From Candidatus Woesearchaeota archaeon (GTDB lineage Archaea > Nanobdellota > Nanobdellia > Woesearchaeales > ARS49), in the NCBI GenBank assembly GCA_016929895.1, contig JAFGHW010000002.1, positions 1-43,389 on the forward strand: 43,389 bases of DNA, in the 5' to 3' direction. Under the pieces are notes generated by a model, which worked only from the letters and a program-made list of their open reading frames with translations, did no database searches and was not told where the DNA came from. Position numbers and translations under genes: made by a program. Shown piece after piece: positions 14,895-23,945 of the stretch. Numbering within the stretch: the stretch's first letter is position 1; every line of letters starts with the position of its first letter.

Positions 14895-17684
14895 TTACTT
14901 ACAAACAAAACCCTGACCATTAATTGAATAAAACGTATTAACAGGCTGGCAACCAGTACCATTCCAACACTTATCAACAGGACAACAACCCAACTTGAAA
15001 GCATTAGGAACATTTAGGGCTATTGGGTCCCACAAGGTATCATCAACAACAGTAATTAAAGGACTATCTGTAAAATGCCAATTACCTTCAGGCAAACAAA
15101 CAGCATGAATATCCCTGGTAATATTAATCAAAGGAATACCGCAATGGGAATCTTTAACATCAATAAAATCATATGATTGATATTCCTGAGGAATGTTCTT
15201 ACAAGCGGTAAATTCTCCCTGATAATTAATAATATTCTTATGCAACAAAGCGCCTGTTGGATAAAAAACCTTATCAAAACAACCACCAGAAGCAAGAACA
15301 GGCAAAGAAACAACTCTTGTCTTGCCAATAGTACATCCATAAGGCGCATCAGGATAAAACTGATTTTCAATTCTTTTAACTTGGTCTTTTGTTAAATCAA
15401 AAGAAGTTATAACATCTTCTATTTCTAGACAAGACTCCATCTTACCTTCTCCTCTAGCGCGATGATGACTCCTGACAACCATAATCCTCGAAAGACCTGT
15501 AACAGTAACAAAAGAATCCTCTCCTTCTAATAACACCTCATAATCAGAAACTGGTTTAGCATTATTTTGTTCAGAAATCAAAGAATCAATAGGAACAGCA
15601 GGAGTAGAATAATCAGAATAACTTTCACCAGGGTCATCAAACTCACTACAACACCTATGACCAGTCCAGTCAAAACCAGCAGAATGACAAGAAAGACTAT
15701 CCTTAATATCCAAATCTTTTGTCCAATCACCATCAGAAGCACAATAAAAAACCTCATCAAAAGCCGAAATCTCACAATAAGAACTTAAATGAGAAACGTA
15801 TTTCTTAATTTCAGAAACATCCAAAGCCCTAGAATAAACAACAACCTCATCAATCAAACCCTCAAAAGGCTCATTAGGCTCAAAAGACCTAGCACCAATA
15901 ATAAAAGGCTTAGTTCCCTGACTAATCTTGCCTGAAACATCAGCATAAGAAATTTGAGCTCCGTTAACAAACAATTTAAGTTTATCGCCATCATAAGTTA
16001 ACACAACAAAAGACCACTGATTAGCAGGAATAACATGAGTCGGAGACAAGAAAATACCATCAGGACTATTCTCTGTGTACAATGAAGCTTTAAGCTTGCC
16101 CTCCTCCAAATACAATTCAACAGACAATTCGCTATTAAAAACAACATGTTTGCCTTCGATATTAGAAGGATTAATCCAAGCAGAAAAACTAAATTCATCC
16201 AAATTAAGATTAATTTGATCAGGAGCGATTACAATATCTGAATACGGTGATGCGAATAAAGCAGCATTGCCTATTTTGCCGGTTGCAAAAGAAATAATAT
16301 TAGGAGCACCATTAACAAACTGATTAACAAAATTATCAGCACTATCTTCTAAAGGATAATAAAAAATAATACCCTCGGGACACACCAAACCAGACAAATC
16401 CCTTGTATTAGAACCCAAAGAAGCATTATTTTTCGTTGAAAAAGGAAAATCAGCAGCGCATTCAAACAAATCACCTGCAGAAGAAATATACTCATGATTC
16501 CCATATCTGGTTTTGACACTAACAGAATCGCCATCCAAAAAATTTATTCTCTCACAAATCCTAATTCTTTCACCAGCTATGGTCTCTAAAGAAATCTCTT
16601 CTGGAAATAAATAAACCTCCTTAAAACCATTAGGACAAAGAGCAGGTTCTTCAAAACCCTTTGCAGAAAAAACTTTGTATTCAAAAGACTTAGAAGCCGA
16701 AAAAAACTTTTCACCATCTGAAACAAGACTCTTTGCAGAAAAAACTTTGTATTCAAAAGACTTAGAAGCCGAAAAAAACTTTTCACCATCTGAAACAAGA
16801 CTCTTTGCAGGACAATAACTTGAATCCAAAGAAAAAATCTCGCCAAAATTTTCCTTAGCAATCCAAGCCCATTTGCCATTAGCTAACTGAGTGCAAAAAG
16901 CATCAATAAGATTTTCATTAAAAAAACCAACATAACCACAGTCAGTAATATCGGTTCCACAACAAATTCCTTTGTACATATCGCCATAATTTGCCAAGCA
17001 ATCAGTATCTTCATTAAAATCACATTTTTTATTCAAATCACCATCATAACAAGCCCAAATATTTTTTGAAGTATCATCAGTTGTGGTTGTTAAAGGAGTT
17101 TCAGGGTCTCTGGCACCAACCCAAACCATAACCCTTGGATTATCAGACTTAACGACAAAAGTATTGCCTTCTGTTTCTGTAAAAACAAAACCAGACAAAA
17201 CATCGTTCATCATACCCAAATTAACAATACCTGATTTAGAAGTAATTGCAGAATTAATTCCTTTTCCTTCAATAAATGAAAGATCGCCTGCAATAGATGG
17301 ATGACAATGCCCCCTGCTACAAGAAGTTCTAACATTTTCTGACCTAACAACAGCCTTATCAGCAAGCACCAAAGACATATCAGCAGAACTAAAACAACCG
17401 CCCTTGCAAATATCCTGATTATCACTTCTTTTAACAAGAATACCTGAATCAAATGCCTCAACAAACCAGTAACCACCACATCGATTATATTCTTTAAAAG
17501 CATTCATATAAGCAAAATCAACAAATACCTTATTAGGAAAATAAAACTCAGAATTAAAAGGATTATCATGAGAATCAACAGTGCGCAAACCTTCTTTACC
17601 AACAATTAACTTAAAAGGAACAGCAGAAACAGTAGCAGAATAGAGTACTATAATAAGTGCTATAACGATAAGCGCCCTTTTCAT
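14895..17684 (-). CDS. Secreted LamG/concanavalin-A-like domain protein
   Basis: ATG at 17684; YYPLEDSADNFVNQF...FSFSAWINPSNIEGKHVVF...WSFVVLTYDGDKLKLFVNG...GLIDEVVVYSRALDVSEI is a LamG-type signature. Confidence 0.8.
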   Translation of the reverse strand: MKRALIVIALIIVLYSATVSAVPFKLIVGKEGLRTVDSHDNPFNSEFYFPNKVFVDFAYMNAFKEYNRCGGYWFVEAFDSGILVKRSDNQDICKGGCFSSADMSLVLADKAVVRSENVRTSCSRGHCHPSIAGDLSFIEGKGINSAITSKSGIVNLGMMNDVLSGFVFTETEGNTFVVKSDNPRVMVWVGARDPETPLTTTTDDTSKNIWACYDGDLNKKCDFNEDTDCLANYGDMYKGICCGTDITDCGYVGFFNENLIDAFCTQLANGKWAWIAKENFGEIFSLDSSYCPAKSLVSDGEKFFSASKSFEYKVFSAKSLVSDGEKFFSASKSFEYKVFSAKGFEEPALCPNGFKEVYLFPEEISLETIAGERIRICERINFLDGDSVSVKTRYGNHEYISSAGDLFECAADFPFSTKNNASLGSNTRDLSGLVCPEGIIFYYPLEDSADNFVNQFVNGAPNIISFATGKIGNAALFASPYSDIVIAPDQINLNLDEFSFSAWINPSNIEGKHVVFNSELSVELYLEEGKLKASLYTENSPDGIFLSPTHVIPANQWSFVVLTYDGDKLKLFVNGAQISYADVSGKISQGTKPFIIGARSFEPNEPFEGLIDEVVVYSRALDVSEIKKYVSHLSSYCEISAFDEVFYCASDGDWTKDLDIKDSLSCHSAGFDWTGHRCCSEFDDPGESYSDYSTPAVPIDSLISEQNNAKPVSDYEVLLEGEDSFVTVTGLSRIMVVRSHHRARGEGKMESCLEIEDVITSFDLTKDQVKRIENQFYPDAPYGCTIGKTRVVSLPVLASGGCFDKVFYPTGALLHKNIINYQGEFTACKNIPQEYQSYDFIDVKDSHCGIPLINITRDIHAVCLPEGNWHFTDSPLITVVDDTLWDPIALNVPNAFKLGCCPVDKCWNGTGCQPVNTFYSINGQGFVCK
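16660..16803. repeat. Exact 72-bp tandem duplication (2 copies) within the LamG-protein CDS
   Basis: tttgcagaaaaaactttgtattcaaaagac...aaacaagactc occurs twice, period 72, in frame (24 aa). Confidence 0.95.
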
Positions 17685-17969
17685 AACCAAACCCTCTTTT
17701 TGAGAATAAACGGTATATATAGTATATAAATGTTTTCCTAACTAACTTTTAAAAAGTTCTCAAAAAACTTTGTTTTTGGAACCTCAAAAATGCAAAACAT
17801 TTTTGAAGGTTAGGATCAAAAGCGCTCTTTGTTCAAGCTCGAGAAGCAAACTATCAGCTGTTTTTCCAAGAAAAACAGAGGGAAAACTCTTCTCTCGCTT
17901 TCACAATGCCGCGCCCATTATTTCATCTACAAACATTTAAATAGGAGAAGATACGAAAAATAAATTATA

Positions 17970-19048: not shown

Positions 19049-19732
19049 ATGATAATGAGAATTCAGAAAAAAATGGCAGAAGCAGGAATAGCGTCAAGAA
19101 GAAAATGCGAAGAAATTATAAAACAAGGCAGAGTCATGGTTAATGGAAAAGTCGCTAAAGTTGGAGATATTGCCTATGAAAAAGACAGAATAATAGTTGA
19201 TGGAAAACCAATCGAGAAAAAAAAGAAAACATACACCATGATGAACAAACCAATAGGATTTGTGACAACAGTTTCAGAAGGACATGGCATGAGAACAGTA
19301 ATGCAGCTAATAAAATTAAAAGAAAGACTATTCCCGGTAGGAAGACTGGATAAGAATACAGAAGGTCTTCTCTTGATTACCAATGATGGAGAACTGGCTA
19401 ACAAATTAACACATCCTTCTCATAAAATTTGGAAAAAATACGAAGCATGGCTAAGCAGACCATTTAAAGATGCTGAGAAATTAAAAAAAGGAATTATAGT
19501 GGGCGGAATAAAAGCAAATATTAAATTAAAAACTGTTCAGGGAAGAACAGTCATCCTAGAAATACACGAAGGAAGAAAACACATAGTAAGAAAAATATTC
19601 GGCAAACTAGGATACAATGTAACTAAATTGCGAAGAACACAAATAGGGCCATTAAAACTAGGAAAACTAGCAAAAGGAACATGGAGATATTTGAAAGAGT
19701 ATGAGTTAAGAGGGCTTTTTCACAAAATTTAA
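19049..19732 (+). CDS. S4-domain RluB/RsuA-family pseudouridine synthase
   Basis: S4 motif IASRRKCEEIIKQGRVMVNG; catalytic GRLDKNTEGLLLITNDGELANKLTHP. Confidence 0.92.
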   Translation: MIMRIQKKMAEAGIASRRKCEEIIKQGRVMVNGKVAKVGDIAYEKDRIIVDGKPIEKKKKTYTMMNKPIGFVTTVSEGHGMRTVMQLIKLKERLFPVGRLDKNTEGLLLITNDGELANKLTHPSHKIWKKYEAWLSRPFKDAEKLKKGIIVGGIKANIKLKTVQGRTVILEIHEGRKHIVRKIFGKLGYNVTKLRRTQIGPLKLGKLAKGTWRYLKEYELRGLFHKI

Positions 19733-20572
19733 CAACTGGCAAGTTCGGCAGATTTCAGAACGAGACGGTTCTTTGCATTTCTTGCAAGCTAAAAGCTTTT
19801 CTGTCAATTTAATCTCTTTTTTCCATTTAGAAAGATTTTTTAAAAGATATTTTACAATATTTTGCTTGATATCTGGATAATCCTTTTCTAACTCATTAAG
19901 CATATTACGAATATAATTCCTATACGCATCAACAGCACAAGGACAACGGCCATACTTAACAGGAAAATCCATAATCCTAGAATACTTTTCAACGTCTTTC
20001 TCGCTTGTAAAATACAAAGGCTTAACCCTAGGAACAAACTTAGGGTCGCGAATAATGCCAGGATAAGGACCTAAACGAGCATTCATCTCTTTCTTGTTCT
20101 TTAACAAATTCATCATAAAAGCCTGAGCCTCATCATCCAAATTATGGCCAGTAACAACCTTGTCTGCCTTAAGTTTTCTAGAATAAAGATTAATCAAATA
20201 TCTTCTGAGAATACCGCAAACAGTACAAGGTAATAAATTCCAGCCTTTAGACTTGATTAATGAAACAATTTCATTAAGAGAATACCCATAAGCTTTTTTA
20301 AAAGAAACTATATGGATTTTAACGTTATTTTGTTTGCAGAAATTTTTTATATTTTTTAAATTCTCTTTAGTATACGTTCCAATAACAGCATCAACAGTAA
20401 TTGCTTCAACATTATAACCCAATTTCTTTAGAACATACAAAATCGTTGTTGAATCTTTACCGCCTGAAACAGCAACAAGAACCTTGTCCTTCGGACTAAT
20501 CAGCTTAAATTTTTTAATTGTGTCCTTAACCTTGTTTTCTAATTTCCTAACAAACTCTTTTTCTGAACTCAT
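19706..20572 (-). CDS. CTU1/TtuA/TtcA-family tRNA 2-thiolation enzyme
   Basis: VLVAVSGGKDSTTILYVLKKLG PP-loop; LPCTVCGILRR; VTGHNLDDEAQ; C-terminal CKKC...CRTC; likely start ATG at 20572 (MSSEKEF). Confidence 0.88.
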   Translation of the reverse strand: MSSEKEFVRKLENKVKDTIKKFKLISPKDKVLVAVSGGKDSTTILYVLKKLGYNVEAITVDAVIGTYTKENLKNIKNFCKQNNVKIHIVSFKKAYGYSLNEIVSLIKSKGWNLLPCTVCGILRRYLINLYSRKLKADKVVTGHNLDDEAQAFMMNLLKNKKEMNARLGPYPGIIRDPKFVPRVKPLYFTSEKDVEKYSRIMDFPVKYGRCPCAVDAYRNYIRNMLNELEKDYPDIKQNIVKYLLKNLSKWKKEIKLTEKLLACKKCKEPSRSEICRTCQLLNFVKKPS

Positions 20573-21404
20573 CAAGCTTTTCCTCAATTTGCTCTTTACT
20601 AAACGCAGATAATGGGCGGTAAACAGGAATATTAAAATCATATTCTTCGATTGATTCAAAGGTATCAGCAACAACAATCGCCTTTGCATTGACCTTTTCA
20701 GCAAATTCATTAATTTCGTTATCTGTCTTTAAAATTTTTAGCTCGACTCTAGAACCATATACATATCTTTTTAATAAACTTATGTCAAATTCTTTTTTAG
20801 CGACACAGAAAACACTACAACCGCGCCTCATCATCAGCAAAGCAGCAAGCAAAGAAGATTCATCCTCAACTAAAGCCACTATATTTCCTTCGATTCCCAA
20901 AGGCAAGCCGCCGCAACCTTTTTTTTTCTCAGTAAAAAGATAAACAAAACCATCAATTATCTCGGCGTACAAAGTTATGCCGGGCTTTTTAAAACTAACT
21001 TTTGCTTTAGTTTTTTCATAAATATATTCTCCTAATTCTTTTGCGAAATCAACAGATTTAACAGGAAACCTCTTATCCAATCGCTGGCATGAAACATAAA
21101 AAGATTTGCCATCAAGCCCATCCTTAATCAAACTTAAAGCAGTTTGTTTAACTTTATCAATATCAAATCCTGCATTAATCGCTTCTGAAAAAGAACTAAT
21201 ACCAAAAACACAGTTTAATGGCTTAACAGAATCAATTTCTGGAATTAATATTCGCCCCATAGGCTTTTTAATAACAGAAAAATTTATTTTGTTACGATTT
21301 AAACAAGAACGAATATTATTCATTAACTTTTTCTCAAAAACAATTCGGTTTTTACCTTTTAAGCCAATTTCAGAATAACGCACAATAACACTATTCATTA
21401 TCAT
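20547..21404 (-). CDS. ThiI-like protein: THUMP region with degenerate PP-loop domain
   Basis: VRYSEIGLKGKNRIVFEKKLMNNI; GLPLGIEGNIVALVEDESSLLAALLMMRRGC where ThiI has SGGxDSP; PVYRPLSAFSKEQIEE. Confidence 0.82.
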   Translation of the reverse strand: MIMNSVIVRYSEIGLKGKNRIVFEKKLMNNIRSCLNRNKINFSVIKKPMGRILIPEIDSVKPLNCVFGISSFSEAINAGFDIDKVKQTALSLIKDGLDGKSFYVSCQRLDKRFPVKSVDFAKELGEYIYEKTKAKVSFKKPGITLYAEIIDGFVYLFTEKKKGCGGLPLGIEGNIVALVEDESSLLAALLMMRRGCSVFCVAKKEFDISLLKRYVYGSRVELKILKTDNEINEFAEKVNAKAIVVADTFESIEEYDFNIPVYRPLSAFSKEQIEEKLDEFRKRVC

Positions 21405-21435: not shown

Positions 21436-22266
21436 TTACTCGAAAATCTTCAATTCTGATGATAGAAGAGGTATATATCTTCCTGTATCTTTTTTAATAA
21501 AATGCTCCCAAAATCTTAATACTATCCATCCCTTTTCTTTTAAAATTTTATTTTGCATTTTGTCATTTTTTCTTCTTTTCTTTTGCATTTTATTCAATTT
21601 TGGGTAAAATTTAATATTTCCGTGCCAGAAATCTCCATCACAATTAAGTATCTTTTTTTGCACAGGAAAAATGAAATCAGGAATACAAATTCCCGCTATT
21701 GGTTCCTGGCAAACAAAATCTAAAAAATCTTTACATTCGGTTATATTTGACTTCTCTTTGCATCCTAGATCTAATAAAATTTGCTTTGTTATTTTTTCAA
21801 TGTAACTTATCTTAGTAACTGGTTGTTTTAAACGGGCAGTTCTTATTTTTTCTATTCTTTGTTTAGCATGCTCTTTTCCATATTTTTTCTCCCAATTGCC
21901 AGTAATAGATTCTGCTTGCCTACGAATTTTTAAATTGGTTTCTTTACTTAATCCTTTATTCCAAGCCACTTGTAATCCTTTTTTCCCTTTATTCCAAGGT
22001 ACTTGCAGACCTTTTTTACCCTTGTTCCAAGGTACTAATTCTCCACACGCGTATTTATTTTTTTTGGTTAAAGAGCTAGTAATACCTTGTTTTATTAGTC
22101 GCTTATCTATCTTTTTATTCTTACCTTTATTCCATATTACTATTTTACCTCGGGAATATAATAATTTCTTTACTTTACTTATTTTTTGGCCAATTTCGGC
22201 CACCCTAGGATCTTTATCTTTAGATAGACCTTTATTCCAAGGAACATGTCCTTTTTTAAATTTCAT
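21436..22266 (-). CDS. NUMOD3-repeat plus Vsr/DUF559-like endonuclease, possible free-standing homing endonuclease
   Basis: Five (V/I)xWNKG motifs; C-terminal PDFIFPVQKKILNCDGDFWHG...RRKNDKMQNKILKEKGWIVLRFWEHFI; likely start MKFKKGHVPWNKG (ATG at 22266). Confidence 0.75.
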   Translation of the reverse strand: MKFKKGHVPWNKGLSKDKDPRVAEIGQKISKVKKLLYSRGKIVIWNKGKNKKIDKRLIKQGITSSLTKKNKYACGELVPWNKGKKGLQVPWNKGKKGLQVAWNKGLSKETNLKIRRQAESITGNWEKKYGKEHAKQRIEKIRTARLKQPVTKISYIEKITKQILLDLGCKEKSNITECKDFLDFVCQEPIAGICIPDFIFPVQKKILNCDGDFWHGNIKFYPKLNKMQKKRRKNDKMQNKILKEKGWIVLRFWEHFIKKDTGRYIPLLSSELKIFE

Positions 22267-22307
22267 AAAACACCTCAAAATCATAATCTATTGTTGAGAT
22301 TTCCTCA

Positions 22308-22425: not shown

Positions 22426-22809
22426 TTATTTTAATTGATTTTTGATAGTATAATCTTCAATAGCTTTATGTAATGCGTCGATGGCTAGAAGTGAACAATG
22501 AAGTTTAGGTGCAGGCAAACCACCTAATAGTTCTACAAGATCCTGCTTAGTAATTTTCATTGCTTTGTCAATAGTTTTTCCTTTGGCTAATTCACATAAT
22601 AAATCTGACGCGCTTATAGCAGCCGCACATCCCAATGTTTTAAATTTAATATCCACAATAATATTATTTTTAACTGTGATGTATAAATGCATAACATCGC
22701 CGCAAGAACGATTACCAACAATACCAATACCATCAGCGTTATCTATCTTGCCAGCATTCTTAGGATTATGAAAATGCCTCATTAACTTATCAGAATACTT
22801 AAAACTCAT
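22426..22809 (-). CDS. iscU: IscU/NifU-like Fe-S cluster scaffold
   Basis: HFHNPKNAG, GNRSCGD, LGCAAAIS, HCSLLAIDAL: three conserved Cys present. Confidence 0.92.
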   Translation of the reverse strand: MSFKYSDKLMRHFHNPKNAGKIDNADGIGIVGNRSCGDVMHLYITVKNNIIVDIKFKTLGCAAAISASDLLCELAKGKTIDKAMKITKQDLVELLGGLPAPKLHCSLLAIDALHKAIEDYTIKNQLK

Positions 22810-23945
22810 TCTGGAGAAATACCTCTCAATTTCTTAATAACATACTTTAGAGAATTTAAAGTATAATCCACATCATCTTTAGAAGTATATTTACTCAAAG
22901 TAAAACGAATAGTTCCATGAGAATCCTCTGGCTTTAAACCAATAGCCTTTAAAACATGACTTGGCTCAAGCTTAGCAGAAGTGCAAGCAGAAGAGGTACT
23001 GACAGCAATTCCCTTATCGTCCAAAGCCAATAAAACAGATTCTCCCTCAACATTTTTAAAAGAAACACTGATATTATTACACAAACGATTTTCTTTAGAA
23101 CCATTCAAAGATGTTCCATCAAATTTCAACAATTCTTCAATAAAATAATCCCTTAATGTATTCATCTTTTCAATATCCTTTTCCTTCATCAATTCAACTG
23201 CCTTGGCAAAACCAACAATCCCTGAAACATTTTCAGTTCCAGCCCGTTGATTAAATTCCTGAGAACCGCCATGAATTTGCTTTTTAATTGTTATACCTTT
23301 TTTTACATATAAAGCACCAATTCCCTTAGGACCATGCAATTTATGAGCAGAAAAACTAGCCAAAGAAAGATTTGCCTTTTTAACATCAATACCAACTTTT
23401 GCAAAAGACTGAACAGCATCTGTATGAAACAAAACATTCTGCTCTTTACAAATTCTCCCTATTTTTTCAATATCCTGAACAGTGCCAATTTCATTATTCG
23501 CGTGCATAAGCGACACTAAAATTGTTTGTTTTGTTATGGATTGTTTCAACTGCTCTAAATCGATAAAACCATCCCTGCTAACATTTAGATAAGATATTTT
23601 AAAACCCTGTTTTTCCAACTCCTTGGACACATTTAACACAGCAGGATGCTCGAACTTAGAAGTAATAATATGATTTCCCCTGCCCTTTAATTCATAAGCA
23701 ATTCCTTTAATAGCAAGATTATTTGATTCAGAACCGCCGCTAGTAAAAATAATCTCCTCTGGCTCTGCATTAATCTTATCAGCAATTATTTTCCTTGCAT
23801 TTTCAACAGCATCCCTTGCCTCCTGGCCAAAAGAATGCAAACAAGAAGCATTACCAAACTTATCTGAAAAATACGGATTCATAGCTTTGACTACTTCATC
23901 TGCCATTTTTGTAGTTGCTGCATTGTCTAAATAGACTTTTTTCAT
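22806..23945 (-). CDS. iscS: Cysteine desulfurase (IscS/NifS family)
   Basis: YLDNAATTKM, FTSGGSESNNLAI, SFSAHKLHGPKGIGALYV, VSTSSACTS. Confidence 0.95.
   Translation of the reverse strand: MKKVYLDNAATTKMADEVVKAMNPYFSDKFGNASCLHSFGQEARDAVENARKIIADKINAEPEEIIFTSGGSESNNLAIKGIAYELKGRGNHIITSKFEHPAVLNVSKELEKQGFKISYLNVSRDGFIDLEQLKQSITKQTILVSLMHANNEIGTVQDIEKIGRICKEQNVLFHTDAVQSFAKVGIDVKKANLSLASFSAHKLHGPKGIGALYVKKGITIKKQIHGGSQEFNQRAGTENVSGIVGFAKAVELMKEKDIEKMNTLRDYFIEELLKFDGTSLNGSKENRLCNNISVSFKNVEGESVLLALDDKGIAVSTSSACTSAKLEPSHVLKAIGLKPEDSHGTIRFTLSKYTSKDDVDYTLNSLKYVIKKLRGISPE

Follow-up and report, generated by a model that had tools for sequence, protein, structure and literature searches.

The window analysed here, the whole 43,389 nt stretch of contig JAFGHW010000002.1 (GCA_016929895.1, Candidatus Woesearchaeota archaeon; all coordinates are forward-strand positions), carries on its reverse strand a ThiI-like protein with a degenerate PP-loop, P0001 (20547..21404; 285 aa), and a TtuA/NcsA-like 2-thiolation enzyme with an intact one, P0002 (19706..20572; 288 aa). 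The two genes overlap by 26 nt (20547..20572, with the P0002 start at 20572), as the initial annotation had it. This arrangement raises the question of which catalytic protein, if any, works with the ThiI-like protein, and whether it is the one encoded by the overlapping gene.

A ThiI-like protein with a degenerate PP-loop

On the basis of Pfam, profile and phmmer searches and of AlphaFold2 modelling, we read P0001 as the THUMP half of a split ThiI, made up of NFLD, THUMP and a truncated, degenerate PP-loop domain. The ThiI framework noted in the initial annotation is well supported: Pfam matches to ThiI_fer (PF22025, 3e-15) and THUMP (PF02926, 2.7e-10) span residues 6-73 and 81-158, so that the NFLD and THUMP domains, which putatively bind the tRNA acceptor stem and CCA end, occupy residues 6-158 (20931..21389, reverse strand). 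The protein carries GLPLGIEG, LLMMRRGC and PVYRPLSAFSKEQI, and in the alignment its Lys16 corresponds to Lys17 of Thermotoga maritima ThiI. The PP-loop is indeed dead. When 78 THUMP halves were aligned with 32 full-length ThiI proteins, residues 179-187 of P0001 (20844..20870, reverse strand) read VEDESSLLA at the position of SGGxDSP; SGGxDS is found in none of the 78 relatives and S[GT]GxDSP in all 32 full-length ThiI proteins examined, and hence the degenerate loop cannot be put down to chance. The ThiI PP-loop domain is matched by Pfam only as a 32-residue fragment below the cut-off, and P0001 stops short of the loop that carries the catalytic cysteine, Cys344. Against the ThiI model TIGR00342 it scores 145.2 bits, under the curated cut-off of 264.5, and covers model positions 1-203 only.

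The AlphaFold2 model of P0001 (pLDDT 95.2) finds its best PDB match in 1VBK, the structure of PH1313 from Pyrococcus horikoshii (TM 0.88/0.82, Foldseek), followed by the ThiI proteins of Thermotoga and Bacillus anthracis, and these matches span the full length of P0001. By sequence, PH1313 matches residues 3-275 at 33% identity (phmmer 1.2e-39). The two proteins share their architecture (NFLD, THUMP and a short dead PP-loop domain), a similar length and a degenerate PP-loop; the P0001 family differs in being tied to a stand-alone catalytic partner, described below, and in belonging to another archaeal group. The crystal structure of PH1313 dates from 2005. A search of named genomes with PH1313, aimed at a stand-alone partner in the Thermococcales, returned a single match, in one member of the Clostridia. 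Of that order, Thermococcus kodakarensis carries s4U in its tRNA (PMC11323500). A 2023 review lists PH1313 as a ThiI-like protein that lacks the conserved residues and whose activity is unconfirmed (PMC9957541).

A stand-alone catalytic half encoded elsewhere in the genome

The genome of the window (G000; 873 kb, 92% complete) was searched for ThiI catalytic domains. No full-length ThiI was found in it, and its sole ThiI catalytic domain belongs to P0003, a stand-alone PP-loop protein of 210 aa encoded outside the window (contig C5:1842-2471, reverse strand). P0003 begins at the PP-loop strand, and its reading frame is closed by a stop 8 codons before the start; it is therefore neither a contig-edge fragment nor a truncated full-length ThiI. 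It carries an intact PP-loop (SGGIDSP) and, at the position of Cys344, SDCC, and has neither NFLD nor THUMP. Its score against TIGR00342 (229.5 bits, model positions 174-371 only) also falls below the cut-off of 264.5, and its model superimposes on the ThiI PPase domain with a TM of 0.93 and 2.0 Å. P0003 has the same stand-alone PF02568 domain as the family NF006222 (PRK08349, 'hypothetical protein'), but at 180 bits it lies below that family's cut-off of 251. P0001 and P0003 together therefore place all three ThiI domains in one genome without a full-length ThiI.

The two halves co-occur and share out the ThiI residues

We classed matches in 281 genomes of the phylum according to whether the THUMP side and the catalytic side share one open reading frame. 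THUMP halves were present in 79 genomes, catalytic halves in 81 and fused, full-length ThiI in 58. Both halves occurred together in 74 genomes, the THUMP half by itself in 5, the catalytic half by itself in 7 and neither in 195 (odds ratio 412, Fisher p = 5e-53). That p-value overstates independence, the genomes being related; free of this reservation is the count of families spanned by the genomes with both halves, which is 26. The genomes with one half are mostly draft assemblies, and one of them, G011, is reported to be 100% complete. Split and fused ThiI are mutually exclusive across the 281 genomes, with G225 as the sole exception.

ThiI is a homodimer with contacts mainly through its PPase domains; NFLD and THUMP of one subunit grip the acceptor stem and CCA end of the tRNA and bring U8 to the active site in the PPase domain of its partner, and in the ThiI-tRNA structure the side chain of Lys17 is directed into the active site of the partner subunit (PMC4041423). 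When residues were mapped onto T. maritima ThiI for 78 THUMP halves, 67 catalytic halves and the full-length proteins, the THUMP halves were found to keep Lys17 (77/78), Asn20 (70/78), Arg21 (65/78), Arg46 (73/78) and Gly126 (76/78). The Cys344 region is missing from every one of them, and from their PPase-like domain the C-terminal third and the residues of the DI-loop are gone. Among the catalytic halves, conservation covers Ser182, Gly184, Asp186 and Ser187 (66/67 each; all full-length proteins have them too), Met267 (66/67) and Gln291 and Gln295 (67/67 for both). A cysteine aligns at Cys344 in 56 of the 67, and in several others it is displaced by a few alignment columns. Judged from the sequences, this partition matches what a heterodimer with a single copy of each function would need. 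Relative to ThiI itself (TIGR00342; 4KR6/4KR7, 2C5S), the same NFLD, THUMP and PP-loop domains and functional residues are recovered when summed over P0001 and P0003; the difference is that ThiI is one polypeptide and the split system two, a THUMP half with a dead, truncated PPase-like domain and a catalytic half without NFLD and THUMP.

The full-length proteins also include a variant active site: in G106 and G272 (L022, L031), ThiI has STGIDSP and an altered catalytic-cysteine loop, TSGKCG in the alignment.

In the tree of catalytic halves, 61 form one large group, and a second set, whose 6 members come without exception from the family of the window's own genome (P0003 itself, L074, L075, L082, L092 and L096), groups with full-length ThiI (96*). 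This hints that the catalytic half of that family may have had a second origin or have been replaced, and yet a single clade is not rejected either for the catalytic halves (AU p = 0.14) or for the THUMP halves (AU p = 0.39). Mirror-tree correlations over 47 genomes were identical for the THUMP-catalytic and THUMP-TtuA pairs (0.64 each) and hence do not discriminate between partners.

The overlapping TtuA-like gene and its neighbourhood

The features that the initial annotation gave for P0002 are all there: VSGGKDS, CTVCG and the absence of the N-terminal Zn-ribbon that was sought in it. With the known TtuA/NcsA enzymes (PH0300, 3VRH/5MKO; NF049949, NF047749) it shares the PP-loop (SGGKDS), the Fe-S cysteine triad, of which CTVCG supplies two, and a C-terminal Zn-ribbon with a double CxxC. 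It differs in the missing N-terminal ribbon and in scoring below both curated equivalog cut-offs (204.9 of 450 and 158.3 of 500 bits), and lies above that of TIGR00269 (67.8 bits, cut-off 62.75). A longer mechanical reading frame, starting at 20710, brings no extra CxxC. At its 3' end, P0002 overlaps tail to tail by 27 nt with an S4-domain pseudouridine synthase (19049-19732, forward strand; PF01479 and PF00849), which we take to be RsuA/RluB-like, a type typical of bacteria.

Upstream of P0001, on the same strand, lie an IscU/NifU scaffold protein (22426..22809; PF01592 3.5e-42, TIGR03419 172 bits) and a cysteine desulfurase of the IscS/NifS type (22806..23945; NifS TIGR03402 515 bits), the probable sulfur source. 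Between IscU and P0001 there is an open reading frame (21436-22284, reverse strand) with repeated 'WNKGL/PWNKGKKGLQ' motifs and, by Pfam, a DUF559/Vsr-like nuclease end; in the sister genome G279 nothing separates IscU from the THUMP half, which makes this frame look like the insertion of a free-standing endonuclease of the homing type. IscS, with or without IscU, is found upstream of the THUMP half even at loci that have no TtuA-like gene close by (G040, G161, G251), and the nifZ-thiI pair of Bacillus subtilis is a known parallel for an IscS beside ThiI (PMC5372739). More widely, the conserved cluster includes SpoIIM-like, RPA-like, MCM and TBP genes on one side and E1-like, TtuA-like and RNase P p30 genes on the other, several of these names resting on a reading of the protein sequences by eye. 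Elsewhere in the window, a 931-aa LamG-domain protein (14895-17690, reverse strand) has a tandem repeat, near-exact and some 24 residues long (SAKSLVSDGEKFFSASKSFEYKVF), which is either a true repeat or an assembly artefact.

In 38 of 57 genomes, no more than 3 kb separates the THUMP half from a TtuA-like gene, and in 24 of these, from 13 families, the two share a strand; such proximity is seen for the catalytic half in 3/57 and for full-length ThiI in 4/26. The P0001/P0002 type of overlap recurs in the sister genomes G279 and G195. The two ThiI halves, for their part, are never immediate neighbours and are mostly on different contigs, which counts against their pairing. Taken together with the strong co-occurrence of the halves, this linkage could be accommodated if P0001 were a shared tRNA-presenting adaptor, serving P0003 for s4U8 and also docking a TtuA/NcsA-like enzyme for 2-thiouridine. 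Such an adaptor, if real, would make one pseudoenzyme the link between two thiolations, but we consider it improbable: TtuA-like enzymes are frequent in genomes without a THUMP half, and the THUMP domain of ThiI acts as a ruler from the CCA end to U8 (PMC4041423) and is unsuited to position 34 or 54.

The proposal that goes back to the initial annotation is that P0001 binds tRNA for P0002, here extended to a replacement of the N-terminal Zn-ribbon that P0002 lacks. Its strongest support is the proximity just described, next to the 26-nt overlap, and it seems to us slightly less probable still. Counting strong matches only (21 weak ones were set aside by hand), THUMP half and TtuA-like gene are both present in 72 genomes and both absent from 48, with 154 genomes having a TtuA-like match without a THUMP half and 7 the reverse (odds ratio 3.2, p = 0.004); G040, G136, G196, G224 and G233 possess the two ThiI halves but lack a strong TtuA-like match, and 98 genomes have a TtuA-like enzyme without any ThiI. 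Nor is any relative seen to fuse the two genes, no THUMP-half reading frame being long enough (maximum 356 aa). The idea that the THUMP protein stands in for the ribbon was rejected, because among 77 TtuA-like proteins compared the ribbon is absent from 32 without regard to the state of ThiI (15 from genomes with split ThiI, 7 with full-length ThiI and 10 with none) and is present in 38 genomes with split ThiI. The cluster, moreover, contains TBP, MCM, RPA, RNase P p30 and an E1-like gene as well, and the THUMP-TtuA linkage is accounted for, with no complex needed, by a neighbourhood of thiolation and translation genes to which both belong. What stands of the original proposal is a split thiolation enzyme with a pseudoenzyme that would bind tRNA in trans; its catalytic partner is to be sought in the stand-alone P0003, given odds ratios of 412 and 3.2, and P0002 most likely performs 2-thiolation as an enzyme in its own right.

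That P0001 is instead a decaying or repurposed paralogue without a role in thiolation, as the loss of its catalytic motif and C-terminal third might suggest, is hardly credible for a protein type that is intact in dozens of genomes from 26 families, keeps its tRNA-binding residues near-invariant and is matched across genomes by the catalytic half.

Discussion

We suggest that P0001 and P0003 very probably constitute a two-polypeptide ThiI, a tRNA U8 4-sulfurtransferase in which P0001 is the tRNA-binding, non-catalytic subunit and P0003 the catalytic one; that they form a heterodimer, that its product is s4U8 and where its sulfur comes from is what we infer. The split enzyme would retain one copy of each job of the homodimer. 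NFLD and THUMP of P0001 would hold the tRNA, and its catalytically dead PPase-like domain would probably serve as the dimer face, although this last role is a guess, since that domain is without its C-terminal third and its DI-loop residues. P0003 would supply the PP-loop that binds ATP as well as the catalytic cysteine, adenylating U8 ahead of its thiolation; the sulfur would probably come from the IscS whose gene lies upstream of P0001. P0002, whose gene overlaps that of P0001, would act as a separate enzyme, co-located by way of the conserved gene cluster.

Our searches of open-access papers turned up no description of a split ThiI. Two-protein tRNA thiolation is also known from the eukaryotic Ctu1-Ctu2 (Ncs6-Ncs2) complex, in which Ctu2 is a PP-loop relative without the active motif. 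The analogy is one of principle only: that complex carries out wobble s2U34 chemistry and has no NFLD or THUMP.

The hypothesis of a split ThiI offers a function for the PH1313 family, as the tRNA-binding, pseudo-catalytic subunit of a two-protein s4U8 synthetase. It also has a bearing on annotation: with P0001 and P0003 both below the curated ThiI cut-off, and with the halves present in 79-81 of the 281 sampled genomes, more than a quarter, automated pipelines will probably get the capacity for thiolation wrong. If the proposal is true, the symmetric, trans-acting homodimer of ThiI would have become a natural division of labour between tRNA binding and catalysis.
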